Shown piece after piece: positions 10,391-64,000 of a stretch of 64,000 bases of DNA (position 1 is its first letter; each line of letters starts with the position of its first letter). The notes beneath the pieces were generated by a model. The model did not search any database, had not been told where the DNA came from, and was given only the letters and a program-made list of their open reading frames with translations. Location of the stretch: assembly GCF_010119975.1 (NCBI RefSeq), contig NZ_CP048222.1, forward strand, positions 124,001 to 188,000. Direction: 5' to 3'. Both the position numbers and the translations under genes were made by a program. The DNA comes from Rhodocytophaga rosea (GTDB lineage Bacteria > Bacteroidota > Bacteroidia > Cytophagales > 172606-1).

Positions 10391-10589
10391 ACTCTCTCAG
10401 GTTACGACAGTATCCCCATTTGGCTATCTACCCTTACAGCGCTTGGGTGATGTATTTATCAGAAAACACATCGTTTTTTAAAGTTAATAGCGAAAAGCCC
10501 AAAAATACCCCTTTTCGATTTTAAAAAAATTTTCAAAAAAATCTCTGCATTTTGGTTACTGCAGAATACAACAAATTATTAAAAACAAA

Positions 10590-10622
10590 AAACCCCCAAA
10601 TTTGCGAAATTTGGGGGTTTTT
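10590..10622 (-). terminator. Rho-independent terminator after the tRNA-Thr fragment
   Basis: A stem of CCCCCAAATTT/AAATTTGGGGG around GCG, with A-runs before and T-runs after, able to act on both strands. The matching hairpin at 63796-63826 has a paired C-to-G and G-to-C change that keeps the stem, which indicates selection on the structure. Confidence 0.85.
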
Positions 10623-10625
10623 AGA

Positions 10626-10680
10626 GAGCCCCCAGTCGGAATCGAACCAACGACCTACTGATTACAAGTATAGCGCCTGT
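10626..10680 (-). repeat. tRNA-Thr(TGT) 3'-half fragment, putative att site (left)
   Basis: On the minus strand this reads from the anticodon loop (CTTGTAA, anticodon TGT) through the 3' anticodon stem, variable loop, T-arm (GTTGG TTCGATT CCGAC) to the acceptor 3' strand GGGGGCTC. The D-arm and 5' acceptor strand are absent, so it is not a functional tRNA. The 55 bp are identical to 63829-63883. Tyrosine recombinases commonly use exactly this tRNA half as an attachment core. Confidence 0.8.
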
Positions 10681-10785
10681 ATGCTATAAATCAGCTACTT
10701 ATGACAGGCAGGTCTCAAATAGGTCTCGAAAAATGATTTCTAAACTACCCCTTTTATCGCTTTTCGCTAGGAAAAATTTACTAAG

Positions 10786-11131
10786 CTTATGAAGATTTAT
10801 GCACAAGTAGTGCCCCTTGAAGAATAGCCCCTGCCCTCTTATTTTTTCCTCCAGTTAATAGTAGCAAGTTCACTTCTCACCTGACTTGGTTTTTCTAAAA
10901 CAAATCCTAAAAGGAGAATACCCACTTTGAGTAGCTTGTGATCTCTCCCAGAATTTAGTTTTATTTACAGCTGGATTCCTGATTTGGGATTGGCTACTTA
11001 CCCATACTAAGTCTTTTATTAATATTATTACACTCAGCTCATCAAAAAATAGTTTACCTTTAACAAAAGTAACGCCTACTGGTAATATAAACCTGGTAAG
11101 AATCCCTTTAATACTGTTTTAACCCAATTTT
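10786..11131. other. Non-coding stretch between the att repeat and the GH130 gene
   Basis: No integrase or other protein-like frame was found where an element's integrase might be expected. A short minus-strand peptide (LKVGILLLGFVLEKPSQVR, about 10848-10945) is possibly fossil coding. The rest presumably contains the GH130 promoter. Confidence 0.4.
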
Positions 11132-12604
11132 ATGAGACTTACCATTGAAAGAAAATCCGAAAAAGTATATCCAGATACCAAGCGTGTAATTGCCCGCTTC
11201 TTCTTTAATGGCGAAGAAAGGGCCAGACAAGTTATTAAACGGGTAATGGGCCTGAGCGAAAAAGAAGTTTTTAATACGATTTCACCCATTCTGCAGGAAT
11301 ACTCCAAACGGCATCGCAACATCACAAAGGTACTGAACAGACATTGCGCCAAAATAAAATATCTGTTTCCGGAAATGGGAATTGATTTTGAAAAAATAGA
11401 ACCTTTCCGCAAATTGTTACTTGGCTCCTACTTTACCCATGAATATTCTATTGAATCAGCGGCATTTTTTAATCCTTCTATCGTAGAGGACCCCGACCAG
11501 TCTGAATTGGAGGTGGGAGAAAAACGAATTATTATCAGCTTTAGAGCCGTGGGAGAAGGCCATATCTCCTCTATTGTTTTCAGGCGTGCCTTGCTGGACA
11601 AGGATACCAATGTGCATGTATTACCAGCGGGTAATTATGTGGATGAGGCTGAAATTGTACGAGGTGCAGAGTATAACAAAAAAACGTTTTTTGAGCCTGC
11701 CCTGACTACCCATATCAACGGGCAGATCGTAGATGAAGTAGAAGCAAAACTGGAGGAAAACTTTGAATTTACTTCGCTGCGGAAGATGGTTACAAACGTG
11801 CAGGCATTACAACCAGATACAGCCCTAAAAAGAGAATATGATAAAGTGCTCTGGCTGGCAGATTCCTATTACGAGCTATCCTTTTCGCTGGATACCGATA
11901 TATCCGACCGGGTTATATTTCCTATTTCGGAGTTTGAGCGTAAAGGCATTGAAGACGCCCGGTTTGTGCGTTTTACGGAGCCAGATGGCCGCATTGTGTA
12001 TTACGCTACTTATACCGCCTATGATGGTTCTGAAATTATGCCCAAACTGCTGAGAACCCGGAATTTTTACGACTTCCGGGTAATGCCACTCTATGGTGCC
12101 GGTGCCCACAATAAAAATCTGGCACTTTTCCCCCGTAAAATTAACGGCCAGTTTGTGATGATGTCGCGGATTGATGGCTGGAGTAATTATATTATGTACT
12201 CTAGTAATATCAATGTGTGGGAAAACCCTGTCAGGATGCAGGAGCCTAAATACAGCTGGGAGTTTATTCAGATCGGCAACTGCGGCTCACCCATTGAAAC
12301 GGAACATGGATGGCTGGTGATTACACATGGTGTAGGTCCGATGCGGCGCTACTGCCTGGGAGTAAGCCTGCTTGATCTGGAAAATCCTTCGATAGAAATA
12401 GGTCATTTAAGCGAACCTTTGCTGATTCCCAATAAAGAAGAAAGAGAAGGATACGTGCCCAATGTATTGTATTCCTGCGGTTCCATTATCCATAATGGTA
12501 AACTGCTGATTCCCTATGGCCTGTCTGATTATTGTTCTTCTTTTGCAACGGTAGATCTGGAATCTCTGCTTGCTAAACTGCTGGATACATCTTCAGCGGT
12601 TTAA
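11132..12604 (+). CDS. GH130-family glycoside phosphorylase/hydrolase
   Basis: A 490-residue cytoplasmic enzyme of the GH130 five-bladed propeller family, which includes beta-mannoside phosphorylases and beta-1,2-mannosidases. An N-terminal extension of about 110 residues precedes the propeller. Typical propeller strands are seen (YYATYTAYDGSEIMPKLLRT, KNLALFPRKINGQFVMMSR, WEFIQIGNCGSPIETEHGW). There is no signal peptide. The gene converges on the two GT4 genes and overlaps the 3' end of the nearer one by 12 bases. The GH130-GT4-GT4 arrangement suggests turnover and synthesis of the same, probably mannose-containing, glycan. Phosphorylase versus hydrolase cannot be decided by eye. Confidence 0.88.
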   Translation: MRLTIERKSEKVYPDTKRVIARFFFNGEERARQVIKRVMGLSEKEVFNTISPILQEYSKRHRNITKVLNRHCAKIKYLFPEMGIDFEKIEPFRKLLLGSYFTHEYSIESAAFFNPSIVEDPDQSELEVGEKRIIISFRAVGEGHISSIVFRRALLDKDTNVHVLPAGNYVDEAEIVRGAEYNKKTFFEPALTTHINGQIVDEVEAKLEENFEFTSLRKMVTNVQALQPDTALKREYDKVLWLADSYYELSFSLDTDISDRVIFPISEFERKGIEDARFVRFTEPDGRIVYYATYTAYDGSEIMPKLLRTRNFYDFRVMPLYGAGAHNKNLALFPRKINGQFVMMSRIDGWSNYIMYSSNINVWENPVRMQEPKYSWEFIQIGNCGSPIETEHGWLVITHGVGPMRRYCLGVSLLDLENPSIEIGHLSEPLLIPNKEEREGYVPNVLYSCGSIIHNGKLLIPYGLSDYCSSFATVDLESLLAKLLDTSSAV

Positions 12605-13600
12605 AATCTGCCGGTAAACGCTTAGGTAGTCATTCGCCATTTTTTGCTGCGAAAAATTAGAAATCGCCCATTCCCGGCAGTTTGAGCGGTGAATCTGAGC
12701 AATATGCCCAACAGCTTCTACCGCCTGGTTTACTGTATCAACCAGAAAACCTGTATAGCCAGACTGGATCAGTTCGGGCATAGCGCCTTTGTTGAAGGCA
12801 ATAACCGGTGTGCCACAAAGCATAGCTTCTGCTACACTTAAACCAAAGGGTTCATTAAAACGGATAGGATGTAAAAGTGCCAGGGCATTGCCCAGCAATT
12901 GATTGCGTTGCTCTGGCCCAGCCTGGCCAAGAAATACAATATCATCATTTAAAAATGGCTGTACTTTCTCCTGAAAACATTCCTGATCCTGAATTATTCC
13001 TGCGATAAATAAACGCTTATTGCTTCTCCGGGCAATCTCAATGGCTTCTGATGTACCCTTGTCTGGGTGGATGCGGCCAAAAAACAATAAATAATCCTCC
13101 GGTTGTGCAGTAAAGGAAAAATCACTCACCCGGAGTCCATTAAACACGGTAGCAATATATGGGAGTAAAGGGCTGCGGTCAGCATGGCTGATGGATACAT
13201 AATGCGAGCTGGCAGCATATTTCTGGTATACCGGAATAATCCTTTCGGATGAAAACCCATGAATAGTCGTTACCATCGGCGTACGAATCAATCCCGAATA
13301 AGTAAGCGGCAGGAAATCGAAATGGTTATGAATCATATCAAATTCCGCTGCTTTTTCCATCAGATTACTGATGTGCAGACATTCCAGCACTTTGGCATCT
13401 TGTTCCCGGTCTTCCTCATACCCTTTCGCTACAACGGCATTTAATTTACCACTTGTCACAGAATCAGCAGTTGCAAAGAGGGTAACATCTATTCCCAGTT
13501 CCACCAAACCTTCCACTACATTAGAAGCGACCTGCTCCCAGGGACCATAATGCCTGGGAGGCGTTCGCCAGGCTACAGGAGCAAGTACGGCGACTCTCAT
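12593..13600 (-). CDS. GT4-family glycosyltransferase
   Basis: A 335-residue GT-B retaining glycosyltransferase. The N-terminal Rossmann domain opens MRVAVLAPVAWRTPPRHYGPWE, and the C-terminal donor-binding domain has the GT4 signature FNEPFGLSVAEAMLCGTPVIA with its E-x7-E pair. This is followed by GAMPELIQSGYTGFLVD. It acts in the cytoplasm on a nucleotide sugar. The start codon overlaps the stop of the preceding gene by 4 bases (ATGA), so the two GT4 genes are translationally coupled. Acceptor and donor are unknown; with GH130 beside it, a mannosyl donor is the natural guess. Confidence 0.9.
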   Translation of the reverse strand: MRVAVLAPVAWRTPPRHYGPWEQVASNVVEGLVELGIDVTLFATADSVTSGKLNAVVAKGYEEDREQDAKVLECLHISNLMEKAAEFDMIHNHFDFLPLTYSGLIRTPMVTTIHGFSSERIIPVYQKYAASSHYVSISHADRSPLLPYIATVFNGLRVSDFSFTAQPEDYLLFFGRIHPDKGTSEAIEIARRSNKRLFIAGIIQDQECFQEKVQPFLNDDIVFLGQAGPEQRNQLLGNALALLHPIRFNEPFGLSVAEAMLCGTPVIAFNKGAMPELIQSGYTGFLVDTVNQAVEAVGHIAQIHRSNCREWAISNFSQQKMANDYLSVYRQILNR

Positions 13601-15876
13601 AAAGCAGGTACCAGTGTATTTCCGGCCTGGTCGTATTCATATTCAATTTCCAGGGCTTTTAGCACCGTTAAATGAGAAATCAGGTAAGCCAGTGTACTTT
13701 CTGCGCCCTGGTTCCGGTTAATGGCGGTTTGCTGCAAGCCATCACAGCATCCTCTGGTTTCATGATCATACAAAGGCACCCGCAGGATATTTTCTCCCAG
13801 AAACCACCGGTAGCTGACAAACATTTTCTCAATAAACTCGGGTTGATGTGTGGTTTGATACGCCTGCAAATACATTAACACCATGGCCATCGTTTCAATG
13901 GCTTGCTGATCAAATAAGGGCATTTTTTCGCCCTGGCTATACCATCCCTGGTTACCAACCGGGCTCAGAAATCCATTACGGAAGCTCAGCTTATCCAGAA
14001 AGCTCAATGATTCCATGGCCACTTGTTTTACCTGTTCATCGCCGGTAATTTCACAGGAATGAAGCAGGGCCAGAGGTAAAATAGCGTTGTCGTAGGTAAG
14101 CTTATCTTCAAACCAGTGCCAGGTATCTTGCTTATGAAGCTGATAGGCTTCCAGTAATGAGGTTGTCAGATGTACCAGTTCTTTCACCATACCCTCGTCA
14201 TCCGGATGTGTTTTCAGATAATAGGCAATGCCAATGATGGTGTTACCGATGCCTCGCAGGTGGTGCAGTTGTTTAAAATGAGGCACCGACCTGGAAAATA
14301 GCTCCCCGGCAAATTCGCGGTATGAATTATTGGGAGCACAATTGATCAGATAACCCAAGGCCCACACCGTCCGGCCAAAAGAATCTTCAGAGCCTATTTC
14401 ATCCAGGTACTGGCGGGTGAAACTAAGAAAATTGCGGAAGTTGCCATCATCTCGCTGCAAATAATGTATGTAACTCAAATAAATAGGGAGCAGGTCAAGA
14501 GCTTCTTTGCTTTTATTGCGCTGATAAGCCATTAGTGCCATGATCAATGCCCGGGCATTGTCATCGAGGCAGTAACCTTCTTTGAGGTTTGGAATGCCAT
14601 ATTTAGCATGCTGTACAATGCCGGTATCATCGGTTAGCCGGCGTACATGTGCCAGGCTAAATTCAGGAATAATTTCCGGGTCTACAATCTGGAGTAGTTT
14701 CTCCTGGGTTATTTCTGCCTGAGAAATGCCTTCTTCTATGGCCTGTAAATATTCTCCACCGATGGTGGGCCAACGCAGGTGAAGTCCATATTGATAGGCA
14801 TTCGCTTGCAACTCTTTTAATTTGGCACTATCGTCTAACAACTCAGTTACTGCTTTTGCCAGTGCTTCTGCATCTTTAAACCCAAACAGCCGGCCCCTGT
14901 TTTCGGCCAGTAACTCAACCGCATGCCAGTAAGGAGTGGATACTACGGCAGCACCTGCGCCTATGGCATAGGATAAGGTGCCACTTGTGATTTGCGCTTC
15001 ATTGTTATAGGGCGTAATATAAATGGCGGCCGCCGTGAGATAATTAATCAGTTCAGCTTCTGAAACAAATTTATTAATGAATATCAGGTGCTTGTCTACT
15101 TTAAGCTGGATTGCCAGCAGTTTTAACTGTTCCCGGTATTCCTCTCCGGAACTGCGTACAACGCCCGGGTGTGTATTGCCTAATACCACATATACCACTT
15201 CCGGATGTTTTGCCACAATGGCTGGTAAGGCTTTAATTACGGTTTCCAATCCTTTGTTGCGGCTCAGCAGACCAAAGCTGAAGAGTACCCGGTGATTGCG
15301 GAAAGGCGAAACCGTATGTAGGGGATTTACTTTAGGTGCTTCCAGGTCTGGTACCCCATGTTCAATGAATTGTATTTTCTCAAGCGGTATCTGGTAAATT
15401 GTAGTCAAAAATTCAATACCCCTGCGGCTCATCACAATCAGTTTGGCAGACCGCTGGGCAATTTCCTGAATAATAATTTTCTGTGTATAGGAAGGCTCCT
15501 GCAAAATGGTATGCAGTACGGTAATAAGAGGTTTTTCCAGTCGGTGGAGTAAGGGTAGGATATAGATGCCGCTTTCACCGCCAAAAATACCAAATTCATG
15601 CTCCAACAGGCAAACATCGGCATCACTGGTGTTAATATACGTAGCGGCCATAATATAATCCTTCTGGCGGTCCTGCCTGATGACAAACTTGACTTCATCT
15701 GGGTATTCGTATTCATCTAACTCATCAGAATCATTCATGGCTATCCCAAAACTGCTTTCCTGTCCGCTCTGTCCATTCACAGGTTGATTCGCCAGGATAG
15801 CTTTGACCACATTATTATTAAAAGTGGCGATACCACAGGCACGTGGTAAATAAGTGGAGATATAGGCGATTTTCAT
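13597..15876 (-). CDS. Two-domain GT4 glycosyltransferase with a C-terminal helical domain
   Basis: A 759-residue protein. Residues 1-390 are a GT4 transferase (MKIAYISTYLPRACGIATFN; donor site ITSGTLSYAIGAGAAVVSTP). Residues about 400-750 form a helical region with repeated motifs (LDDNARALIMALMAYQRN, DSFGRTVWALGYLIN), consistent with an alpha/alpha toroid seen in carbohydrate-active enzymes. It is first in the two-gene GT operon and coupled to the next by ATGA. The toroid may be a substrate-binding or second catalytic unit; this is inference. There is no signal peptide, so the protein is cytoplasmic. Confidence 0.88.
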   Translation of the reverse strand: MKIAYISTYLPRACGIATFNNNVVKAILANQPVNGQSGQESSFGIAMNDSDELDEYEYPDEVKFVIRQDRQKDYIMAATYINTSDADVCLLEHEFGIFGGESGIYILPLLHRLEKPLITVLHTILQEPSYTQKIIIQEIAQRSAKLIVMSRRGIEFLTTIYQIPLEKIQFIEHGVPDLEAPKVNPLHTVSPFRNHRVLFSFGLLSRNKGLETVIKALPAIVAKHPEVVYVVLGNTHPGVVRSSGEEYREQLKLLAIQLKVDKHLIFINKFVSEAELINYLTAAAIYITPYNNEAQITSGTLSYAIGAGAAVVSTPYWHAVELLAENRGRLFGFKDAEALAKAVTELLDDSAKLKELQANAYQYGLHLRWPTIGGEYLQAIEEGISQAEITQEKLLQIVDPEIIPEFSLAHVRRLTDDTGIVQHAKYGIPNLKEGYCLDDNARALIMALMAYQRNKSKEALDLLPIYLSYIHYLQRDDGNFRNFLSFTRQYLDEIGSEDSFGRTVWALGYLINCAPNNSYREFAGELFSRSVPHFKQLHHLRGIGNTIIGIAYYLKTHPDDEGMVKELVHLTTSLLEAYQLHKQDTWHWFEDKLTYDNAILPLALLHSCEITGDEQVKQVAMESLSFLDKLSFRNGFLSPVGNQGWYSQGEKMPLFDQQAIETMAMVLMYLQAYQTTHQPEFIEKMFVSYRWFLGENILRVPLYDHETRGCCDGLQQTAINRNQGAESTLAYLISHLTVLKALEIEYEYDQAGNTLVPAL

Positions 15877-15952
15877 TCATGTCGGTTTAAGGTGAAGCCA
15901 AATGGCTGGAGAGAAAATATATTATTTAAAGGCGGCTGATAGCATTTCATTC

Positions 15953-17023
15953 TTAAGCATTCCCTAGTTTTCGGATGTATAACCAGTGGGAATGCAGGGC
16001 CTTCAGCACAGAAGGGTGTTCTATATAGGTGACATTAAACTCCTGGCAAGTCTGTTTTACAAACTCATTGATTTTAGGATAGTGTATGTGGCTTACCCTG
16101 GGAAATAAATGATGTTCTACCTGAAAATTTAACCCACCCAGCAGCCAGGAAGTTATTTTACTATTGGTGGCAAAGTTAGCCGTTGTACTTACCTGGTGTA
16201 TGGCCCATTCCTGCTCAATTTTATTTATATCTTTTTCAAGAACGGGGAAATGCGTGCCTTCTACCACATGTGCCAGCTGAAAAACTACAGCAATAAACAG
16301 CCCACAAACAACGGTAACAATTAGAAAGCCGATGATCGTTTTTATAAATCCAACCATGAGTATGGGCAATACCAGATAGAAGAATATATAGCATACTTTG
16401 GTAAGCCAGAAAATATAATGTTCTTTCTTTTCTAAGGGTTGTGAAACCCCATTAGCCGCAATTTTGCCAGTAAAATACTTTTCAAAATCATGATAAAATA
16501 CCCAGGTGATATAAGAAATGCCATAAAGCAGGAAAAAGTAAAAGTGCTGGAACCGATGAATCTTATATAAAGGCTGGCTCTGGTGTAAGCGCATAAAAGG
16601 CTTTACATCTATATCAGAATCCATTCCTTCAATATTAGTATAGGTATGATGGTTTATATTATGCTTCACCTTCCAGAAGTAAGTATTTCCTCCCAGCACA
16701 TTCAGAAAATAAGCAGAAGTACTGTTGAGCCAGGCATGTTTAGAAAAGCTCTGATGGCCGCCTTCATGCATAATATTAAAGCCGATAAGGGCCAGATTCA
16801 TACCTAGCAACATGCATAATGCAACAGCAATTAACGGAGCCGGTGTAAAGAAAACAAGAAGAATATATAGTAGGATAGCAGAAGAAACTTGGATCAGCCC
16901 TTTTATCAATAGAGTATTATTACCAGAAGGATGAAGGTGGTTACTGGCAAAGTACTGGTCTACTTTTTCTTTTAATGACTTAAAGAAGGGACTTTGCTTA
17001 TTATTGAAGGTTACCTTGGACAT
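15953..17023 (-). CDS. Membrane fatty acid desaturase (copy 1)
   Basis: A 356-residue integral-membrane di-iron desaturase of the linoleoyl/acyl-lipid type. The three histidine boxes are HEGGH (86-90), HNINHH (121-126) and QVEHH (301-305). The last is the front-end-like third box. Paired hydrophobic segments lie at about 42-82 and 205-255. It introduces a double bond into membrane acyl chains, adjusting fluidity. It is paralogous to the gene at 47455-48576. Its upstream DNA carries AGTATTTATACG (17075-17086), a 12-mer also found in the hairpin upstream of the second desaturase. Confidence 0.92.
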   Translation of the reverse strand: MSKVTFNNKQSPFFKSLKEKVDQYFASNHLHPSGNNTLLIKGLIQVSSAILLYILLVFFTPAPLIAVALCMLLGMNLALIGFNIMHEGGHQSFSKHAWLNSTSAYFLNVLGGNTYFWKVKHNINHHTYTNIEGMDSDIDVKPFMRLHQSQPLYKIHRFQHFYFFLLYGISYITWVFYHDFEKYFTGKIAANGVSQPLEKKEHYIFWLTKVCYIFFYLVLPILMVGFIKTIIGFLIVTVVCGLFIAVVFQLAHVVEGTHFPVLEKDINKIEQEWAIHQVSTTANFATNSKITSWLLGGLNFQVEHHLFPRVSHIHYPKINEFVKQTCQEFNVTYIEHPSVLKALHSHWLYIRKLGNA

Positions 17024-17139
17024 ATACGGGGTACCATTACTTATATAAGGATTTATACTGATTACTTATCAATAAGTATTTATACGGCTTTTACAGTTGC
17101 TTAGTCTAGCAGGTTTAATAATTTATTATAATTAAGTAA

Positions 17140-17748
17140 TTAAACACAATTAAGTATAATATTTTCATCTACTTCAAGTTTTTTAAAATCAAGTTTAAAG
17201 TAAGTACCCAATCCTGAAAAGATGGTATAAAGTGCCTCCTTAAGCGCTTCTACAGACAGATAGTCTTCGGCTTTGAGCCAATGATATTTCACCTGCTTCC
17301 AAAATCGTTCGATCCTGTTAAGATGAGGACTATACTTAGGCAGCAAAAAGATGTATAATCCTTTCTGTTCCCATTCTTCTTTTTTGACTTCCCATAGGCC
17401 ACATGTATGCCAGGAGGCGTTGTCTAAGACTATGACAGTAAACTTGGAAATAGATGTTGAGAAGGCCTCTACACATTCAATGATAAAGTCAGCGTTTAGA
17501 CTCCCACTTTTCTGATAAGTAAGCAACTCATTATTTGTACTTAACAAGCCAAATACATTTATCCTTGTACTTCTTTGGGATAAAATAGGGGCGTGTTCGC
17601 CTTTTTTGATCCATCCATAAGGTACACAAGGGGTAAGGCAAAACCCTGATTCGTCTCCAAAATATAAATCTATACTGCCTGTCTGTGCCAAATAAAGCAA
17701 AGCATGTAATCGCTTGACTTTCTGCTCATATGCTTCTTTGTTTTGCAA
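17140..17748 (-). CDS. IS630 transposase, DDE half
   Basis: The catalytic half of an IS630 transposase (202 residues from its first ATG). DDE motifs: LYFGDESGF, VIVLDNASWH and the PHLNRIERFWKQVK block with its acidic residue. The frame is open upstream (YRWKRFRKWIKPLQ) back to the slippery run of the preceding frame. The functional enzyme is probably a fusion made by a -1 shift. It inserts the element at TA dinucleotides. Confidence 0.88.
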   Translation of the reverse strand: MQNKEAYEQKVKRLHALLYLAQTGSIDLYFGDESGFCLTPCVPYGWIKKGEHAPILSQRSTRINVFGLLSTNNELLTYQKSGSLNADFIIECVEAFSTSISKFTVIVLDNASWHTCGLWEVKKEEWEQKGLYIFLLPKYSPHLNRIERFWKQVKYHWLKAEDYLSVEALKEALYTIFSGLGTYFKLDFKKLEVDENIILNCV

Positions 17749-17753
17749 TGGCT

Positions 17754-18191
17754 TTATCCATTTACGGAAACGTTTCCATCGGTAGTCAATTTTTTTAAAA
17801 ACCGCTTCAAGGTCATCTCACTCATAGCCGTGCCTAATTTAGCTTCTATCTCTCGCTTAGCTAATTTAAGTTGTTGTTTTTCTTTCTCTATGCTATTTTC
17901 CACTACTTCAACATGGGTAGCATTACTGGTAGTAAGGATGGGTTTTCTGCCTTTCCCTTTTTGGTTCTTTAACCCTACCACACCTGTTTTCTCAAAGCGA
18001 TCAAACCACTTATAAATACTTAACTGACTTACTTGAAAAATGCTTGCTAACTTCTGTACTTGATAGCCTTGATTGGATAACAGTATACATTGGCAACGGT
18101 TACGTTCCTGATAACTTTTACTATCTTTATGAATCTTCTCTAAGTCTTGTTTTTGCTTGTCTGTAATCTTCTTGATATAACGCATAAGCAA
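17754..18191 (-). CDS. IS630 transposase, N-terminal HTH half
   Basis: A 145-residue DNA-binding half with two helix-turn-helix units (QVQKLASIFQVSQLSIYKWF; AMSEMTLKRFLKK). Before its stop the codons TTA AAA AAA provide an A AAA AAA slippery heptamer. A -1 shift leads into KIDYRWKRFRKW and then the DDE half. The terminal LTTDGNVSVNG is the unshifted tail. Confidence 0.87.
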   Translation of the reverse strand: MLMRYIKKITDKQKQDLEKIHKDSKSYQERNRCQCILLSNQGYQVQKLASIFQVSQLSIYKWFDRFEKTGVVGLKNQKGKGRKPILTTSNATHVEVVENSIEKEKQQLKLAKREIEAKLGTAMSEMTLKRFLKKLTTDGNVSVNG

Positions 18192-18251
18192 AGATACAAT
18201 TTGCCAAAATCTTATACTTAATTGTGTACTCTTACTTAGTAAGTAGACTTT

Positions 18252-19927: not shown

Positions 19928-20590
19928 TTAAAAACCTATCCCGATAAAAGCCTGGGCAACAGAATTTTTAGCATTTCGGGTGATCTGCCCGGCAATGTCA
20001 CTCTTGCCAATTTCTCTCAGGCCATAATTGTACCGGAGCCCTATCTGAAATCCTTTTATATCCAGGGCTAAACCTCCTGCCAGTCCATAATCTACGGCGT
20101 TAAAATCACTTCTGTCCAGCTCTAGCACGGAGTCGGTGGTCAGGTCTTGTTTTAAATTCTTCACATTCGCATTAAATAAATAGGAAACGTAAGGACCAGC
20201 CTGAATGCTGATAGGGCCTAAGGTAAGCGAAGCTAATACTGGTAAGTCTACATAATTGAGGTTGAATCTCACCTGTCCGTCTTGTGCAAAGGGAATATTT
20301 TGATACGTTCCGATTTTAGTTCCTTTCGATGACCATAGCAATTCTGGCTGAATGGCAAAAAATTCTCCGATAGGTGCTTTCATCCATACACCGGCATGCA
20401 AGCCGACTTTCGACTTCTCATCGTTAACCTCATCTATATATAGGTTAGAAACGTTAACTCCCCCTTTCACGCCAAAGCGGAATTGCCGGTCATCCTGTGC
20501 GTTGGCAGAGAATGCTGCGGTTAATAAGCAGGCAGTAAAAAGGCTGCCTGTAACCCATGTATTAATAATTGATTTTTTAGCTGGTTTCAT
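19928..20590 (-). CDS. PorT-like outer-membrane beta-barrel protein
   Basis: A 220-residue exported barrel of the outer-membrane protein beta-barrel (PorT-like) family. The signal peptide covers residues 1-31 (cleavage after SANA). It is followed by FGVKGGVNVSN, the hallmark first strand, then alternating strands (FFAIQPELLWSSKG, YVDLPVLASLTLGPISIQAG, QIGLRYNYGLREI) and a terminal IGF. Its job is unknown; relatives are often envelope-stress or colonisation factors. A strong terminator follows the stop codon. A Fur-like palindrome lies about 250 bases upstream. Confidence 0.85.
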   Translation of the reverse strand: MKPAKKSIINTWVTGSLFTACLLTAAFSANAQDDRQFRFGVKGGVNVSNLYIDEVNDEKSKVGLHAGVWMKAPIGEFFAIQPELLWSSKGTKIGTYQNIPFAQDGQVRFNLNYVDLPVLASLTLGPISIQAGPYVSYLFNANVKNLKQDLTTDSVLELDRSDFNAVDYGLAGGLALDIKGFQIGLRYNYGLREIGKSDIAGQITRNAKNSVAQAFIGIGF

Positions 20591-20840
20591 GATATGAATA
20601 AATTTAAACTGATTAAAAATGAATGTGTATAAGGCTCAATAGAAATTTTAAAGAAGCTGCATATTCATCTGTAAAAGTAAACCTATAAAACTACATCAGA
20701 AATGATAGCGGTCAGCCTGAAAAGTATGGAGGATGATACATGTCAGCAAAGTAAATTGCCAGAATCTGTTTACCTGCTACCTATTCGGAAGAGTAGATTT
20801 AATATTGGCAGATTATATTTATATGCGGTTGAAGACTGGA

Positions 20841-53817: not shown

Positions 53818-53834
53818 AATTAATTATTTTAACT

Positions 53835-54214: not shown

Positions 54215-55125
54215 CTGTTTAGGATAAACAGAAAAATTTCCAAAGAAGTGAGAATTTTGTGTTGCGAGGCACAAAAGAATACATCCAATGGAAATCTTAC
54301 CTAAAGATACAATAGATAGGTATATATTAGCAAATTTGTCAGTAGGCATGAGAGGTAAAGAATGTAGCAAGGAACTGATGCGAGAAGTGGTAGGACTCAT
54401 ACTTTACCGGCTGAAAACAGGATGTCAGTGGAGGTTTCTGCCAACAAAAGCATTTTTTACAGATAAAGCCCTCAGCTGGCAAGGCGTTTACTATCATTTT
54501 AATGAATGGGTAAAAGATGGTTCCTGGAGCAAAGTATGGATGACTATCTTGTCAGTTCATAAGGATAAATTAGACTTGTCATCTATACAGCTGGATGGCA
54601 GCCATACAATTTGTAAGCAAGGAGGGCAAGCTGTAGGGTATCAGGCAAGAAAAAAAGCCAATACCACTAATAATTTGTTTTTAGCCGACAATCAAGGGCA
54701 AATGTTAGCCTGTGCAACTTCTCAGGCAGGCGAGCATCATGATTTATTTGATATTACAAGCCTGTTTGAAGAATTATGCCAGATCCTTATCAAGGCAGGT
54801 ATTGACTTGAATGGGTTATTTCTCAATGCTGATGCAGGATTTGATTGCAAAGAGTTGAGAAAAGTATGTAAGGATAAACACATAGAAGCCAATATTGCCT
54901 TTAACTCAAGAAATACTGGAAGCCAAAATGAGCAGTATCAATATTTTGATGAAGAGTTATACAAGTGCAGGAAAGTTATAGAGCATGCTAATGCCTGGAT
55001 GGACAGTTTCAAAGCTTTGCTAGTGAGATTTGAGAAAAAAGCTTCCTCATGGCTAGCTTTACTCCTAATAGCTTTTTCTGTTCGCTTCCTTCGTAAAATC
55101 AAACAGAAAACTAAATCCTAAACAG
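54215..55125 (+). mobile_element. IS5-family insertion sequence, copy B
   Basis: 911 bp with inverted ends CTGTTTAGGAT (54215-54225) and ATCCTAAACAG (55115-55125), one intact transposase frame. No clear target duplication. It interrupts the small membrane protein gene read on the minus strand. Confidence 0.88.
54288..55121 (+). CDS. IS5-family transposase (DUF4096 type)
   Basis: A 277-residue DDE transposase. The N-terminal DUF4096-like domain (VVGLILYRLKTGCQWRFLP) precedes the catalytic motifs: IQLDGSHTICK, LNADAGFDCKEL and the C-terminal EHANAWMDSFKALLVRFEKK, where the last acidic residue is expected. It belongs to a different IS5 subgroup from the transposase at 28395. It ends 4 bases before the right inverted repeat, and the element looks complete. 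Confidence 0.9.
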   Translation: MEILPKDTIDRYILANLSVGMRGKECSKELMREVVGLILYRLKTGCQWRFLPTKAFFTDKALSWQGVYYHFNEWVKDGSWSKVWMTILSVHKDKLDLSSIQLDGSHTICKQGGQAVGYQARKKANTTNNLFLADNQGQMLACATSQAGEHHDLFDITSLFEELCQILIKAGIDLNGLFLNADAGFDCKELRKVCKDKHIEANIAFNSRNTGSQNEQYQYFDEELYKCRKVIEHANAWMDSFKALLVRFEKKASSWLALLLIAFSVRFLRKIKQKTKS

Positions 55126-55401
55126 ATTCACTGTTAATCTGGACATGGCTGCTTACTTTTTATAGAAAATTCCTTGCCTTTTTCGGGCACATACTTTCAT
55201 TGCATTGATTCTCAATAAAGAAGTGGATCATATGCTTTCTTGCTCAATTAGATACTTTTCTGATTTTATTGTAAGAATAATAACCGCACAAAAGTGAATG
55301 CTTTTACCCAAGAAAGCATTACATAACTATAAAGGAGATTTACATCATTCACACATTTTAAACCTAGCCTTGACTACTGCATATTTCAACAAAAAACCAC
55401 T

Positions 55402-55962
55402 ATGAAGCTCTATATCAAATACATGGTAAGCCAACGGTGCAAAATGTTGGTGAAAGAAGAATTACTAAAACTTGGGCTTCGCTATGTAGTACTTGATTTG
55501 GGTATGGTTGAGCTATTAGAAGACATTACTCAAGAGCAGCACGATCAACTGAAAGTAAACCTTCTCCGTTCAGGCCTGGAACTGCTGGACGATAAAAAAA
55601 GTATTCTGATTGATAAAATCAAGAATGTGATTATCGAAATGGTTCATTATTCGGATCAATTACCAAAGGTGAATTATTCTGATTTCATCAGTGAAAAATT
55701 AAACTACGATTATACCTATCTATCCAATATTTTTTCAGAAGTAAAAGGCATCACTATACAGCAGTTTATCATCATCCATAAAATTGAGCGGGTAAAAGAA
55801 TTGCTGCTCTATGACGAGCTGAACCTGACCGAGATTGCCTATCAACTCCATTACAGCAGTGTAGCCCATTTATCCAACCAGTTCAAAAAAGTTACCGGCC
55901 TGTCGCCTTCCTTTTTCAAGCAACTCAAGCGTAAGCGCAAAGGCAATCTGGAAAACCTGTAA
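55402..55962 (+). CDS. AraC-family transcriptional regulator
   Basis: A 186-residue regulator. N-terminal about 90 residues (MKLYIKYMVSQRCKMLVKEE) are a short, ligand-type or dimer region. The C-terminal about 95 residues are an AraC double helix-turn-helix (YLSNIFSEVKGITIQQFIII; LTEIAYQLHYSSVAHLSNQF; VTGLSPSFFKQLK). It resembles a Bacteroidota subgroup with the ending 'SPSxFKxLKxxR'. It probably controls the cupin and YceI genes that follow, but no operator was identified. Confidence 0.88.
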   Translation: MKLYIKYMVSQRCKMLVKEELLKLGLRYVVLDLGMVELLEDITQEQHDQLKVNLLRSGLELLDDKKSILIDKIKNVIIEMVHYSDQLPKVNYSDFISEKLNYDYTYLSNIFSEVKGITIQQFIIIHKIERVKELLLYDELNLTEIAYQLHYSSVAHLSNQFKKVTGLSPSFFKQLKRKRKGNLENL

Positions 55963-56094
55963 TTGTATTTCCCTCTTTATATAATCCAACATGGCTTTTT
56001 AATGTGTGATAGATGCAACATTTAACCAAAGTTATGTAAGGGGCAGCCGCTTAAAGGAGTCTACCTTTACAGCCTACTTTACTTGCAACTACTC

Positions 56095-56484
56095 ATGAAA
56101 AAAGATAAACATGATCTTAGTAATTCTACCGGCAATAATCCTATCCTTTTCCCTGAATTAGAAAAATCAACGGTACATATCATTGTTGAAATCATTGAAT
56201 ATGTTCCTAACGGGGTATTGAGCAAGACGATTATTAAAAAAACCACCGGCAATGTAACCGCTTCCTCCTTTGATGCCGGCGAAGAATTAGCCGAAAAGAC
56301 TTCTCCCTTCGACACCTATGTACAGATCATTGATGGGACTGCCGAGTTGCATATAAATGATAAGCAATATAAGCTCAGGTTAGGAGAGGGAATAGTAATT
56401 CCTGCTCATACAAAGCACAGTTTTAATGCCTATGAGCAATTCAAAATGATATCCACAGTCATCAAAAGCGGATACGAGGACTAA
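56095..56484 (+). CDS. Cupin-domain protein
   Basis: A 129-residue single cupin starting at ATG 56095 (MKKDKHDLSNSTG). Cupin strands: SSFDAGEELAEKTSPFDTYV with the EKTSP pattern typical of a Bacteroidota cupin subfamily, IIDGTAELHINDKQYKLRL and GIVIPAHTKHSFNAYEQFKM. One histidine pair (HTKH) is present in the last motif, so a metal site is possible but incomplete. It follows the AraC gene and may be regulated by it. Confidence 0.85.
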   Translation: MKKDKHDLSNSTGNNPILFPELEKSTVHIIVEIIEYVPNGVLSKTIIKKTTGNVTASSFDAGEELAEKTSPFDTYVQIIDGTAELHINDKQYKLRLGEGIVIPAHTKHSFNAYEQFKMISTVIKSGYED

Positions 56485-56605
56485 TTACCTGGGCCTACCA
56501 TTCATGTGGCCTGATACAATAGAGAGAAAAGCTGGATAGCATTATCTCAAAAATAGGATGGCACAGTGGGATTCAACTAACTACTTTAAATCAAAAACAA
56601 GGGCT

Positions 56606-57220
56606 ATGAAAAAGATATGTAAACCAGGTTTTGTATGGATGACTATTTGTGTAATAATGGGATTCTCTCATTTTACACAATCACAATCACACTATACGAT
56701 TACCCAAACCAAAGAGAGCAAGATGACCATGGCAGGTACCTCTACCCTGCACGATTGGGACATGACTACTCAAATTTTTACCGGGAATGCACAGTTCGGC
56801 TTCAATCCAGGAAATGATGGGCTAAACACACTCCAATCTCTCACCTTCTCACTAGTGGCTCAGAACCTAAAAAGTGGACAGAAGGGATTGGATAAGAATG
56901 CTTATAAAGCCTTGAAGACAGATCAGTTTCAAAACATTGATTACAAACTATTGTCGGCAAGGGTATCTCCCCAAAAAGAAAACCAATTCCTTATTAAAAC
57001 ACAGGGCAATCTCACAATTGCAGGTATTACAAAACAGGTAAGTATGGATGTGTATTGTGAGATCAATAAAGATTCAACCATTACGTGCAGGGGATCAGAT
57101 AAATTGAAGATGAGTGATTATAAGGTGAAACCACCCACTTTTATGATGGGGGCTATGAAAACAGGAGATGCCATTACGCTGGATTTTACGATGGTATACA
57201 AAAAAGAAGCAGGCATCTAA
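56606..57220 (+). CDS. YceI-family exported lipid-binding-like protein
   Basis: A 204-residue protein. The ATG at 56606 (MKKICKPGFVWMTICVIMGF) gives a proper signal peptide, whereas the frame could start 48 bases earlier. The YceI barrel follows: MTMAGTSTLHDWDMTTQIFT, LTFSLVAQNLKSGQKGLDKN, QGNLTIAGITKQVSMDVYCE, GSDKLKMSDYKVKPPTFMMG. YceI proteins bind isoprenoid-like lipids in the periplasm. It lies 30 bases before the barrel protein gene, so they are one unit. Confidence 0.9.
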   Translation: MKKICKPGFVWMTICVIMGFSHFTQSQSHYTITQTKESKMTMAGTSTLHDWDMTTQIFTGNAQFGFNPGNDGLNTLQSLTFSLVAQNLKSGQKGLDKNAYKALKTDQFQNIDYKLLSARVSPQKENQFLIKTQGNLTIAGITKQVSMDVYCEINKDSTITCRGSDKLKMSDYKVKPPTFMMGAMKTGDAITLDFTMVYKKEAGI

Positions 57221-57252
57221 TATCACATTTCATCCATTAAAATACGATCCTT

Positions 57253-58532
57253 ATGAAATATATACTTCTGCTCGTGTGTTGCCTTATCTCTCTTGTTGTG
57301 AAAGCGCAACAACCGGCTCTGCAATTTTTCAGACCTAACGATAAGAGTGGCCTGAACGTCTTTGAGACACCCAAAGCTGATACGGTACATTTCAAAGGCC
57401 TTAAAGTGCGGCTTGGCGGTGACTTTGCTATGCAGTTCCAGGGATTAACCCAAAGCAATGCCGAAGGCAATCTGGTTGAACTAGGTAAAGATTTTAACTT
57501 ACCTTCCGCTAACCTGAACCTGGATGTACAGTTACTGGATGGTGTACGGATGCACTTGCGAACCTATCTTTCTTCAAAGCATCATAACGAAGCCTGGATC
57601 AAAGGAGGGCACATGCAAATTGATCGGCTTGATTTTATCAGGCCAGGATTTTTAGCAGGTATTATGAGCTACACCAGTATTACCATTGGCCTGGATGAAT
57701 TTAACTATGGGGATGCCCACCTGCGCAGATCAGATAATGCGGGGGCTATTTTTAATCCCTTTACAGGCAATTATATCATGGATGCCTTTTCCACAGAAGC
57801 TTTCGGGGAAGTAACTCTGCAGCATAAGGGACTATTGGCAGTAGTAGGGGTTACTAACGGTAAGCTCAACCAGAATGTAGTCGTAAATGCCAACACGGAC
57901 AACAAACCCTCTATTTATGGGAAGTTGGGCTATGATAAACAGTTAAGCCATGATCTGCGGGTAAGGGTAACTGGCTCCTGGTATATCAATCATGGGACCA
58001 CCTCAGGCACTTGGCTGTATGGGGTGATCGCACAGGCGGCAGATACTATCATGTATTGCATACCAAACCTGATTCAAATGGCATTAGTGAAGGCACTGAC
58101 TTCGAGGGTAGATATAATGCTCGTTTTACCAAACTAACTGCCTTACAAATCAATCCCTTTATTAAATACAAAGGAATTGAACTCTTTGCTATTTATGAAC
58201 TTGCTAGTGGAAGCAACGAGTTTACCGGGCCACAGGTTGGCAAAGAAGGGGCTTTTACGCAACTGGCAGCAGAATTAATTTACCGCTTTGGAAGAAACGA
58301 AAAATTCTATATGGCAGGAAGGTTTAATACGGTAAGAGGGAAGATGCTGGAAAGCGCCCCTGAAAACCTTGAAATCCGCAGGCTAAACATAGGAGGTGGT
58401 TGGTTTATCTCAAAAAATGTGTTGACGAAAGTAGAATATGTAAATCAGGCTTATACTGGCAATGCCTGGACTGGCAGATTTGTGGGAGCGGAATTTAGTG
58501 GGTTTACTATTGAAGCGGTAATCAGTTTTTAA
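57253..58532 (+). pseudogene. Outer-membrane porin-like protein, single-base frameshift
   Basis: The first piece (57253-58137) has a signal peptide (MKYILLLVCCLISLVVKAQQ) and beta strands of a porin-like barrel (VRLGGDFAMQFQGLTQSN; LNLDVQLLDGVRMHLRTYLS). The second piece, in another frame (about 58022-58532), continues with GDRTGGRYYHVLHTKPDSNG and ends SGFTIEAVISF-stop, a barrel terminus. Adding one G to the GGGG at 58021-58024 joins them into a 426-residue protein. It is likely cotranscribed with YceI. A real mutation and a homopolymer sequencing error are both possible. Confidence 0.8.
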
Positions 58533-59350: not shown

Positions 59351-62300
59351 CTAATTTTCTGGCATGAGTACTCTAAACAATGTTCCCTTACCAAGCTCGC
59401 TTTCGACTTCTATTGAACCTCCGGCATTTTCTACTATCCTTTTGACTATGTATAATCCAATACCTGACCCGTCGACATGATGATGGAGTCTTTTGAACAT
59501 TTCAAAAATTCTAGAAGTATTCTCTTGCTTTATACCAAGACCATTGTCTCTTACTTCGATAATAGTAAGGTTCTGCCTGCAATAGGTATTTATCAAGATT
59601 TCTAAGCCCACCTCTGGGTTCCTATATTTTATTGCATTCGTAATCAGATTATAAAAAATACTTCTCAGGTTATACTTCGAAAAAACAATTTTTTGGCAGC
59701 CATCTGTAGAAACGCTTATCGAAGCGGCAGAGGCTTCAATCATGGGAGAGATTTCCAGGCTGATTTCTTCCATTAATTTGTCAATTATAATTTCTTCTAC
59801 ATCCTCATTTACATTTTTTTGCGTCTTACTAATTTCGGTAAGTCCTTTGATTGTTTCCTTAAATCTTAAAATAGACTTCTCCATTAAACTTAAGATAGCA
59901 TTTAGTTTCTCGCTAAGTGGCTGCCCATCTAACTGTTTTTTTAACGCATTTAACAGTCCTTCCAGGTTTGCAATGGGTGCTTTTAAGTCGTGTGAGGCTG
60001 TATAAACAAAATTATCAAGGTCATTATTAATTTTTTGCAGCTCTTTGTTCTTTAGCTTTAACTGCTCGTTGCTTTCGTAGATTCTAACTTTTGCCTCTTT
60101 TTCTTCACTCACGTCTCGTACCTCAATTACCGTAGCGACTGGAATACCGTTTTCAAAAATTGGACTAGCTGCACAAACAACAGAAAAGAAAGTACCATCT
60201 TTTTTTATGAATACATCCTCATGGGCTCTTACATCGAAGTTTTCCGGTAAAGCCCTATCTAATGGACATTCCTCCATGGGATAGAATGATCCATCGGGAC
60301 GATGATGGTGGATTAGATAGTGTAGCGGTTTGATACTAATTTCTTCAAAGCTATATCCAAACATTTTTTCTGCGGCCGGATTGAAGAACGTGCAGTACCC
60401 TTTCGCATTCATCATGAAAAGCGCTGAAGTGGCATTGTCGGTTATGGTTTTGTTGAGTGTACTTTGGTATTCTAAGGCTGCTTTATTAAGCTTTTCTTCT
60501 GTTATGTCACGTTGAACACAGACCAATAACGATTTATCCTTAAGCTTCAAAGTAGATATAAAAGAGTAGGTATAAAAAGTTGTGCCGTCCTTTCTGATAT
60601 TATGCCATTCCCCGCTCCAGAACCCGTTTGTTTTTAATACCGTCAGCACTTGGTTAACAATTGCTTCATTTTCTTTTGGAGGATACGCATTTTGAATGGA
60701 AACATGCTTTCCTATCAATTCTCCCCTTTCATACCCAAACATTCGCTCTTCTGTGGGATTTGTGTAAAAAATAACACCAGTTTCATCAGAAACACTCACG
60801 CCTTCATTCATGTTTTCAAGGACAGTTGCAAGCATTTTCAACCTTTCTTGAGAAATTTTAAATTCATGAATGTCAGTTAAAGTGGCAAGCCATTTGGTTA
60901 TTTCCCCCCTATCATTTTTCATCGGAAGAGCCCTGACTAAATGCCATCTAAATTCCTTGGTATGTGCATTTTGTATTCTAGTTTCAATCTCGAATGAAGT
61001 TCCTACTGCAAAAGCCTTTCTCCATATCTCTGTCGTCGAAGCTATATCATCAGGATGATTAACGGAAGGCCATCCTTTTCTTATTTCCTTCATAGAAAGA
61101 CCAGTATAGTCAACCCAATGCTTATTTATATAGTCAAATTCTCCTTGAGCGTTGGCCGTCCACACCATTTGTGGCATGGCATCAAGGGTGAATTGAAATT
61201 TTTGTTCACTAGCCTTTAACTGAGAAAATAGTTTGGAATTTTGGATTGAAATTCCTGCATGCGTACTCACGGACAAAACTAGCTTTTCAGACTCTTCAGT
61301 AAATATTCCCGGTTTAGAATGTCCAAAAAATAGCCCTCCCAACACCTCGCCATTGATAGATTTAACAGGAATAGCCATGTAGCTTTTAACCGGAAGATGC
61401 CCTTGAGGCATACCTTTATGTGGAGGATTTTGCCCATATCGTGGATCCAGCGTAATGTCATCTGAACGAACAATTGCTGTTCCCTCAAAAGTAGGGGCGA
61501 AAATTTGTGTTTTACGAGGGTGAGGAAACTTTGAGAAATTCTCAATAGCCACCCCGGAGATAGTGTAAAGGGTAAGTAACTCGCCCTGCTCATTTATTGT
61601 ATTGTAAAAGAAGGCGCCGAATTCCGCTTTAGCTAATTTTGTAGCGACATCAGTCACCTCCTGCACAATGTCGTGTATGTTAAATTTTTGGGTTATTGAA
61701 GAATTTAAATCGTTTATGGTTTTTAAATTCTGCGTTCTCTCCAATACCTTCAGTTCAAGATCTTTATTAATATCTAAAAGTCTCTCTTCTGCTTCTACCA
61801 ATGCTTCATTCGTAGCAACCAGTTCCTCTTCGCTTTGTCTGAGTTCTTCATTCATGGCGGCTACTTCTTCATGGCTTTCTTTTAGCTCCTTATTCTTTTT
61901 TTCAAGTTGCTTCCCACTTATCTGAACATAAAGACTAAAGGCTTGCCTTTGAACCTCCGAAATAATAAAATCTATTTCTTTAACAATATCAGTGATCAGG
62001 TTAGCATCTTGCGTGTATTCTGGAAGACGACTATAAAAAAGTGTTTTTCGAACAGAATAAATCAAGAGAATATCGTCAATGCTTATTTCATCCCTTGTTA
62101 CTGTGGGTAATTCATTAGCCTCCCACTGCCTTAAAGTTTCCTTGATACCATCCCGCCAGGTGTCATCCATGATATGTGTTAAAAATAGATCCAGTGATTC
62201 TTTTACCAACCTTTCAAATTGCTCAGCAGGTAGATTTCTCAAAAGATTCTCAACCAATGGAGGATTCACCTCTTTGAGAAGCTGCAGGTTTTGCTTTGCA

Positions 62301-62377
62301 GCTTCCTCTAGTTTTACTAAAAGAAAGTGGGCATAGTTCTTTAATTTATCACTTATATATCTTATTGCCTCGTGCAT
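59351..62377 (-). CDS. GAF/PAS multi-domain sensor histidine kinase with a helical N-terminus
   Basis: A 1008-residue soluble kinase. Residues 1-165 are an all-helical domain of the RsbRD-like kind (tentative). A coil (about 165-215) leads to GAF (about 225-385, TLYTISGVAIENFSKFPHPR). Three PAS domains follow at about 395-510, 515-635 and 640-760 (GEFDYINKHWVDYTGLSMKE; GVIFYTNPTEERMFGYERGE; GYCTFFNPAAEKMFGYSFEE). Kinase core: TASHDLKAPIANLEGL, NLITNAIKYRN, DNGLGI and GSGIGLYIVKRI. It shares the SHDLKAP kinase subtype with the kinases at 35391 and 40482. No receiver adjoins it. Confidence 0.92.
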   Translation of the reverse strand: MHEAIRYISDKLKNYAHFLLVKLEEAAKQNLQLLKEVNPPLVENLLRNLPAEQFERLVKESLDLFLTHIMDDTWRDGIKETLRQWEANELPTVTRDEISIDDILLIYSVRKTLFYSRLPEYTQDANLITDIVKEIDFIISEVQRQAFSLYVQISGKQLEKKNKELKESHEEVAAMNEELRQSEEELVATNEALVEAEERLLDINKDLELKVLERTQNLKTINDLNSSITQKFNIHDIVQEVTDVATKLAKAEFGAFFYNTINEQGELLTLYTISGVAIENFSKFPHPRKTQIFAPTFEGTAIVRSDDITLDPRYGQNPPHKGMPQGHLPVKSYMAIPVKSINGEVLGGLFFGHSKPGIFTEESEKLVLSVSTHAGISIQNSKLFSQLKASEQKFQFTLDAMPQMVWTANAQGEFDYINKHWVDYTGLSMKEIRKGWPSVNHPDDIASTTEIWRKAFAVGTSFEIETRIQNAHTKEFRWHLVRALPMKNDRGEITKWLATLTDIHEFKISQERLKMLATVLENMNEGVSVSDETGVIFYTNPTEERMFGYERGELIGKHVSIQNAYPPKENEAIVNQVLTVLKTNGFWSGEWHNIRKDGTTFYTYSFISTLKLKDKSLLVCVQRDITEEKLNKAALEYQSTLNKTITDNATSALFMMNAKGYCTFFNPAAEKMFGYSFEEISIKPLHYLIHHHRPDGSFYPMEECPLDRALPENFDVRAHEDVFIKKDGTFFSVVCAASPIFENGIPVATVIEVRDVSEEKEAKVRIYESNEQLKLKNKELQKINNDLDNFVYTASHDLKAPIANLEGLLNALKKQLDGQPLSEKLNAILSLMEKSILRFKETIKGLTEISKTQKNVNEDVEEIIIDKLMEEISLEISPMIEASAASISVSTDGCQKIVFSKYNLRSIFYNLITNAIKYRNPEVGLEILINTYCRQNLTIIEVRDNGLGIKQENTSRIFEMFKRLHHHVDGSGIGLYIVKRIVENAGGSIEVESELGKGTLFRVLMPEN

Positions 62378-62640: not shown

Positions 62641-62910
62641 CACAATAAATACGACAGTTCAGAAGTAAAGCCAAAGGCGAGGTTAATTTAACTACTCCTT
62701 TACTAAAATTTCATAGAATGGCTAGAGGGGTGATAAGTTATATTTCCTCCAGCCTTATAAAATTATCTTTCCCTGTCTGCCGATTTTTATTATTTGTCGG
62801 AATAATATTGGCAGGGTAAATTTTCTCAGCAGCTATACTTAAGAATTATCTACCCTGCTATCTTTCCAATCTAGTATTGAAATTTCATTTAAGCACCTCT
62901 CCTTTTGGGT

Positions 62911-63147
62911 TCAATTAGGGATAAATGACGCATGCTCCCTTTCAATTCCATTGCCTAAAATAGTCAGAATAGGTTCTTTCTCCCGATCGGTATTTTTATT
63001 GTCATAAATAGCTGCCCACTTGATACCAAACTCCGAATTTTCAATGTACCAATAAATCCTGTTACGCCAGTACTCGAATCCATTCACTGGATCCTTCTGT
63101 CTGATGAATTTGGAATAGAAATCCTGTTTCTTAGTAGTGGTTTGTTC
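62911..63147 (-). pseudogene. C-terminal remnant of an unknown protein
   Basis: 79 codons between stops read EQTTTKKQDFYSKFIRQKDP, GFEYWRNRIYWYIENSEFG, IKWAAIYDNKN and PILTILGNGIEREHASFIPN before TGA. It is protein-like but has no start and is preceded by a stop. Not recognised; likely a truncated cargo gene among IS debris. Confidence 0.45.
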
Positions 63148-63165
63148 TCAATCGTTAAAGAAATA

Positions 63166-63181
63166 AATAACAGTTTTGTAT
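63166..63181 (+). repeat. 16-bp direct repeat flanking the plus-strand IS3 debris (left)
   Basis: AATAACAGTTTTGTAT, repeated exactly at 63612-63627 on the other side of the IS3 fragment. Confidence 0.6.
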
Positions 63182-63338
63182 ATGGGACTAGTGATATCTT
63201 TAGGTGGCAATTTTTTCTTCATCTTAAGTAATTATTTATGTTGTAGGTTAATTTCAAATCCAGCCTTACAATATGGCATAACTGGCATCTTATATTTATG
63301 GCGAGGCAGTAGTAAGGGTATTAAGATGGAACCATTTT

Positions 63339-63485: not shown

Positions 63486-63611
63486 GCCGGTCCTATTTTG
63501 GGAGGAGGTCAATTATCTTTTACACTCTAATTTCTTCTGGTCCTCTTTTGGGGAAGTTTACAAATAGAAACCCTCTTTTCTGGTTGCCGATTGTGCGGGA
63601 TGTAAAAATAA

Positions 63612-63627
63612 AATAACAGTTTTGTAT
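63612..63627 (+). repeat. 16-bp direct repeat flanking the plus-strand IS3 debris (right)
   Basis: Second copy of AATAACAGTTTTGTAT, 446 bases from the first. The bases just before it also match loosely. Confidence 0.6.
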
Positions 63628-63795
63628 CAGGATTTGGTTATCTACTATTATGGAGCTTAGTTGATGTATTTAGTAGAAAAATAAGTCATTTGTAAAGTTA
63701 ATAGCGAAAAGCCCAAAAACACCCCTTCTCGATTTTAAAAAAATTCTCAAAAAAATCTCTGGAATTTTGCTACTGCAAAAATCAAAAACAAAAAA

Positions 63796-63826
63796 CCGCC
63801 AAATTTGCGAAATTTAGCGGTTTTTT
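63796..63826 (-). terminator. Rho-independent terminator after the right tRNA-Thr fragment
   Basis: CCGCCAAATTT/AAATTTAGCGG around GCG followed by T-runs. A compensatory C-G to G-C swap distinguishes it from the left hairpin. Confidence 0.82.
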
Positions 63827-63828
63827 TG

Positions 63829-63883
63829 GAGCCCCCAGTCGGAATCGAACCAACGACCTACTGATTACAAGTATAGCGCCTGT
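63829..63883 (-). repeat. tRNA-Thr(TGT) 3'-half fragment, putative att site (right)
   Basis: 55 bp identical to 10626-10680. On the minus strand the acceptor end here reads GGGGGCTCCA, including an encoded CCA that the left copy lacks. No D-arm or 5' acceptor strand is present. Confidence 0.8.
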
Positions 63884-64000
63884 CTACTGTCAGTCAAGGA
63901 GTTATATGCCATGGGTCTGAAATAGGTCTGAAAAAATAATTTTGAAAACACCCTTTTTACCTCCTTTCGCTAGGAAAAATCAATAGCTTAGCCAGCTAAA

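Follow-up and report, generated by a model that had tools for sequence, protein, structure and literature searches.

The window analyzed here is a stretch of 64,000 nucleotides from the complete genome (8.98 Mb) of Rhodocytophaga rosea, corresponding to positions 124,001 to 188,000 (C1:124001-188000) of contig NZ_CP048222.1, hereafter C1. It contains E1, an element of 53.2 kb (window ~10.67-63.83 kb) bounded on either side by the 3' half of a tRNA-Thr(TGT) gene. From left to right, the locus comprises a first tRNA half (half A), E1, a second half (half B), a second element of 105 kb, and the intact tRNA-Thr(TGT) gene. The ends of these elements, scored by nhmmer with models built from junction ends, and the attachment (att) cores between them are as follows, in window coordinates:

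10427-10623, plus strand: element-type left end of ~190 bp with a terminator-like hairpin at its end, on the outer side of the left repeat (nhmmer E 4.8e-53)
10588-10622, unstranded: GC-rich hairpin and T-run directly downstream of the tRNA half, self-complementary in BLAST; a similar hairpin follows the intact tRNA
10626-10669, minus strand: left att core, the 44-bp 3' half of tRNA-Thr(TGT), identical to C1:292783-292826 of the intact gene; the 55-bp repeat extends to 10680
10671-10806, plus strand: right-type end of E1 (nhmmer E 1.4e-33)
10711-10731, plus strand: direct-repeat motif GGTCTCAAATAGGTCTCGAAA, a probable arm-type integrase site 41 bp from the core (genome pattern search, fixed spacing)
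63641-63826, plus strand: left-type end of E1, without an integrase, its boundary at the right repeat (nhmmer E 3.3e-54)
63829-63872, minus strand: att core common to E1 and the 105-kb element, tRNA-Thr(TGT) 3' half, identical to the intact gene; the 55-bp repeat extends to 63883
63874-64000, plus strand: start of the 105-kb element, a right-type end, continuing to C1:292782 (nhmmer E 5.1e-42)
63914-63934: arm motif in the right-type end of the 105-kb element, an exact match

Positions 10626-10680 and 63829-63883 are identical over 55 bp and lie in the same orientation, as a sequence-only reading of the window had reported. An exact repeat of this length is far beyond chance expectation. Each copy consists of 44 bp of the tRNA-Thr(TGT) 3' half, antisense and spanning the anticodon loop to the acceptor end, and 11 bp of element sequence. 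The half stops within the anticodon loop, where the intact gene goes on as CAGTTGCTC and the elements as ATAGCGCC. Homology extends ~100-180 bp on each side of the repeats (81% identity over 332 bp, with three gap openings), in agreement with the flank similarity described earlier. No complete tRNA was found in the window, and an Rfam scan of it returned nothing at gathering scores, weak sub-threshold matches being disregarded. In the whole genome, the 3' half has three copies only (C1:134626, 187829, and 292783), all in one orientation and at one tRNA locus, so it is not scattered as an ordinary repeat. The third copy is contained in the intact gene (C1:292783-292856, minus strand), the only complete tRNA-Thr(TGT) of the three, which sits at the right-hand end, 105 kb right of the window copies and on the side where it had been predicted. 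Two other origins of the halves were considered and ruled out: a dispersed repeat or miniature inverted-repeat transposable element, by the three copies at a single tRNA locus, and an intron or split tRNA, by the presence of an intact gene and the joining of the halves to element ends.

The neighbor between half B and the intact tRNA (C1:187.87-292.78 kb), anticipated as another element beyond 63.9 kb, is predicted from its gene content to be an integrative and conjugative element (ICE), with an integrase, a relaxase, a coupling protein, VirB4, and att sites all present. Its tyrosine integrase (C1:291430-292626, 398 aa), likewise expected to the right of the window, directly adjoins the intact tRNA and has Arm-DNA-bind_5, SAM-like, and catalytic domains. 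The element further encodes VirD4/TraG, a MobA-type relaxase that is the sole PF03432 match found in the R. rosea genome, VirB4, TraM, TraN, and a type I methylase. The ICE backbone (C1:235.8-276.5 kb) and the integrase match contig C111 of Rhodocytophaga aerolata KACC 12507, a sister species and the closest relative compared, at ~76-86%, and there too they lie beside an intact tRNA-Thr. No tyrosine recombinase was found in the 53 kb of E1, as the sequence-only reading had stated, and neither E1 nor any of the other cassettes described below yielded a relaxase, tra genes, or homologs of the ICE integration, mobilization, and transfer genes.

The same ends recur well beyond the window. The genus comparison covers two species, R. 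rosea and R. aerolata, in which 19 cassette junctions share one right end and, for the most part, also one left end. A 21-bp motif, GGTCTGAAATAGGTCTGAAAA, lies on the element side, 41-42 bp from the core, in 19 of the 19 junctions compared. When the whole R. rosea genome was searched for this pattern with up to three mismatches tolerated, seven matches were obtained, five of them at tRNA-linked element ends, against zero control matches. At tRNA-Thr(TGT), the motif also stands on the integrase side, ~120 bp away from the core; tRNA-Arg(TCT) has a copy in a similar place, as does tRNA-Thr(CGT), there with four mismatches. The motif is presumably the arm site of the ICE integrase. The conserved left end, ~190 bp long and closing in a hairpin, is present in most cassettes; the 17 junctions that have it span two species and both the Thr and the Arg array. 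Identity between junctions is 95-97% in the cores, 73-75% in the right ends, and 79-87% in the left ends; the flanks thus differ by 13-27%. Right ends resemble one another as much across the Thr and Arg arrays as inside either one (75/73/74%, the between-array value being 74%), whereas left ends are closer within an array than between arrays and cluster partly by array.

Further integrases and motif copies were observed in passing. At C1:1269632-1303540, an intact tRNA-Thr(CGT) and an adjoining integrase, 73% identical to that of the ICE, are followed after 34 kb by a tRNA-Thr(CGT) 3' half with the same motif, making up a second tRNA island. An integrase 79% identical to the ICE integrase accompanies tRNA-Arg(TCT) at C1:1552049-1553470, and no distal half of this tRNA was found in R. 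rosea; R. aerolata shows nine cassette junctions at this tRNA and lacks such an integrase there. A 326-aa tyrosine recombinase is present in R. rosea in many near-identical copies (PF00589 matches of 123-126 bits at nine places, among them C1:338063, 496052, and 937828), twice near a larger recombinase (C1:617442/627179 and 1293041/1295665); this family is perhaps a recombinase-based transposon. Outside the genus, the arm motif gave a few single matches. On an uncultured Bacteroidetes contig (locus L151:4168-4320), it stands after a tRNA-Asp and its terminator, with no homolog of the ICE integrase found within 8 kb.

In R. aerolata, the junctions form arrays at two tRNA genes, and their counts are lower bounds: at least eight at tRNA-Thr(TGT) and nine at tRNA-Arg(TCT). 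The eight tRNA-Thr halves lie on contigs C88 (five), C122 (two), and C128 (one), and the intact gene on C111. The nine tRNA-Arg(TCT) halves lie on C116 (five), C183, C130, C145, and C149, and the intact gene on C147, where it is accompanied by a cassette-type left end and by no directly adjoining integrase. A tRNA-Met(CAT)-like half, its identity read from sequence, has the same right end in locus L143. Single contigs hold up to five junctions, spaced 16.6-38.9 kb apart. Ten intervals, E1 counted, have a half on both sides, and 8/10 have both canonical ends. These eight complete cassettes, of 16.6-53.2 kb including E1, combine a common pair of ends with differing cargo, which, judged from lengths and first residues of open reading frames only, includes metal efflux, molybdoenzyme, SusC/D, and nonribosomal peptide synthetase-like genes, among others. 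For these cassette junctions, at least 17 in number, R. aerolata retains only one integrase of the matching subfamily. A cassette left end of another type, with TGTGTATC repeats resembling the tRNA-Thr flank in genome G005, was seen at C88:14657; this cassette was perhaps made by a different integrase.

The cargo of E1, assigned by Pfam, consists overall of PAS/GAF/CheB-CheR sensor kinases, two fatty-acid desaturases, stress-type proteins, glycosyltransferases, SPFH/NfeD proteins, and insertion sequence (IS) transposases, bearing out the earlier description of an IS-rich segment of kinases, desaturases, and stress proteins:

11132-17023, unstranded: GH130 phosphorylase, two glycosyltransferases, and a fatty-acid desaturase (Pfam)
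19928-27973, unstranded: outer-membrane beta-barrel protein, response regulator-CRP fusion, and CheB-CheR-PAS-kinase fusion (Pfam; 71-78% to the C128 element of R. aerolata)
34929-46306, unstranded: response regulator and PAS/GAF/CheB-CheR histidine kinases (Pfam)
47455-58137, unstranded: second desaturase, Usp-like protein, NfeD, SPFH/Band 7, DUF6544, AraC-type regulator, YceI, and one transposase (Pfam)
59351-62377, minus strand: multi-PAS/GAF histidine kinase of 1008 aa (Pfam)
62887-63270, minus strand: remnant of a small gene of ~105 aa without a Pfam match (nhmmer E 2.9e-100); a second fragment lies at 63563-63677 (E 3e-09)

This cargo is related to that of the cassette at half C128:23867 (~67-84% over several genes; 84% for 50505-52158). 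Related genes thus stand beside a tRNA-Thr half in R. aerolata again, and the same gene order without the repeats was not encountered. Two IS copies with a DDE_3 transposase (17133-18238 and 29755-30858) are 87% identical, and two paralogous CheB-CheR-PAS-histidine kinase fusions, each longer than 1000 aa, lie at 24758-27973 and 43067-46306. The small gene at the left end of E1 has an intact homolog at the edge of the ICE backbone. More widely, this conserved gene of ~105 aa (locus L023:15205-15522 and homologs), for which no Pfam match was found, sits at the ICE backbone edge and was found in broken form next to the left ends of several cassettes.

Half A and half B have one and the same element end in their left flanks. 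An end that recurs at two different tRNAs comes from the elements rather than from the chromosome, so another element, or a remnant of one, once lay left of half A. The tandem order put forward in the sequence-only reading therefore stands for the element to the right followed by E1; its placement of chromosome left of 10.4 kb is not established. Compared with relatives, the left flank gave no long colinear match, and the sequence bordering the R. aerolata array on its outer side corresponds to other parts of the R. rosea genome, mainly 5.09-5.10 Mb.

Taken together, E1 is very probably a genomic island lacking an integrase, inserted at the anticodon loop of tRNA-Thr(TGT) and standing in tandem with the 105-kb ICE, which restores the tRNA gene. 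By its sequence anatomy, E1 is flanked by the attL and attR of a site-specific integrase, and it contains no integration, conjugation, or mobilization genes. It has neither the integrase nor the relaxase and type IV secretion system (T4SS) of its own that would make it an ICE. In all likelihood, it is a cis-mobilizable element (CIME) in a tandem CIME-ICE array, and its mobilization by the neighboring ICE is plausible. By the likely mechanism, the ICE integrase, with its Arm-DNA-bind_5, SAM-like, and catalytic domains, would bind the arm sites, direct repeats placed 41 bp from the core, and recombine the 44-bp tRNA cores. Use of the outer att pair would release E1 and the ICE together (cis-mobilization), and use of the E1 pair alone would yield a circular E1; transfer of the composite could then proceed through the relaxase and T4SS of the ICE.

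Several observations weigh against this interpretation. No empty site was found, the sites being occupied in both species examined. The outer boundary left of 10.4 kb was not located, as neither C1:1-134 kb nor the final 200 kb of the contig yielded a further junction. The R. aerolata assembly consists of ~200 contigs, which do not give the order of its array pieces. Moreover, two of its array contigs have other, transposon-like tyrosine recombinases (C116:16992-17918 and C183:6559-8586), related to families found elsewhere in R. rosea.

How E1 arose is a separate question. It may stem from a distinct lineage of integrase-less cassettes that normally rely on the integrase supplied by ICEs resident at several tRNA genes, a proposal that we hold at slightly under an even chance. 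One common integrase-less left end at both tRNA-Thr and tRNA-Arg, right ends as similar between arrays as within them, a single integrase of the subfamily beside at least 17 junctions in R. aerolata, and different cargo in each cassette read all favor it, against the partial grouping of left ends by array and a sample of two species. A dead relic, that is, an old ICE that lost its integrase and transfer genes in place and whose att halves no longer recombine, is a serious if somewhat doubtful candidate. It would account for the ICE-edge gene remnant, often broken, beside the left end and for the several IS copies in E1, and most tandem partners are described as decayed in a review (PMC5704250). 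Against it stand a core that does not differ from the intact tRNA and an arm spacing that is constant at every junction while the flanks have diverged; also, a single left end lacking an integrase, repeated at 17 junctions of two arrays, is unlike the outcome of independent decays. Had many ICEs decayed independently, their breakpoints should differ, which makes a common ancestor already without an integrase the more economical explanation. As to whether E1 derives from an ICE or an integrative and mobilizable element by deletion, the observations pull both ways: the broken ICE-edge gene beside several left ends points to an ICE ancestry of that end, yet one left end without an integrase is common to 17 junctions. 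Between a working lineage and relics, the balance is about even. Segmental duplication or homologous recombination of the tRNA region, despite the flank similarity on both sides that it would explain, is very improbable: the similarity breaks off at fixed boundaries of the elements, R. aerolata has these ends beside a half of another tRNA (Arg) as well, and the intact tRNA is accompanied by an integrase and arm sites.

More tentatively, and with less than even confidence, the Rhodocytophaga integrase-less cassettes of 17-53 kb could be a lineage of their own, with one end pair and Thr or Arg cores, that builds long tRNA arrays via resident ICE integrases and exchanges adaptive modules to this day. 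Such arrays would be a large-scale, tRNA-docked counterpart of the cassette array. In integron arrays, many recombinase-less cassettes stand beside one recombinase source. The likeness is one of working only, as the Rhodocytophaga cassettes are far larger and their recombining site is a tRNA core. The arrangement suggests that gene sets of large size may be kept and moved via the machinery of another element. Given the common ends and one integrase subfamily beside the target tRNAs, the choice between relic and working lineage is directly testable.

No description of arrays of the Rhodocytophaga type was found in the open-access literature, whereas several known systems share parts of their architecture. 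The tRNA islands cataloged by Islander are alike in their anticodon-centered att sites, displaced 3' tRNA gene fragment, and tyrosine integrase (PMC4383910). That survey lists four tandems of three or more among 3919 islands and demands an integrase of each array member (PMC4383910), so arrays such as those of Rhodocytophaga would be missed. In Dehalococcoides, islands carrying adaptive genes likewise stand in tandem at a single RNA gene, ssrA, and 15 of them lack an integration module (PMC3146451). There, however, a serine recombinase acts on a transfer-messenger RNA target, whereas Rhodocytophaga combines a tyrosine integrase with an anticodon-loop target in several tRNAs. CIME-ICE accretion itself is established (PMC5704250, PMC7563491). 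ICESt1 and the CIMEs of Streptococcus thermophilus and S. salivarius are similar in that att-flanked islands without integration and transfer genes form tandems with an ICE where a target gene ends (PMC7563491, PMC5704250). The S. salivarius composites comprise two to three elements, and classical CIMEs measure 1.2-13 kb (PMC7563491). In contrast, the Rhodocytophaga cassettes span 16.6-53.2 kb, with up to five junctions per contig, at two tRNA genes and mostly with one integrase-less left end.

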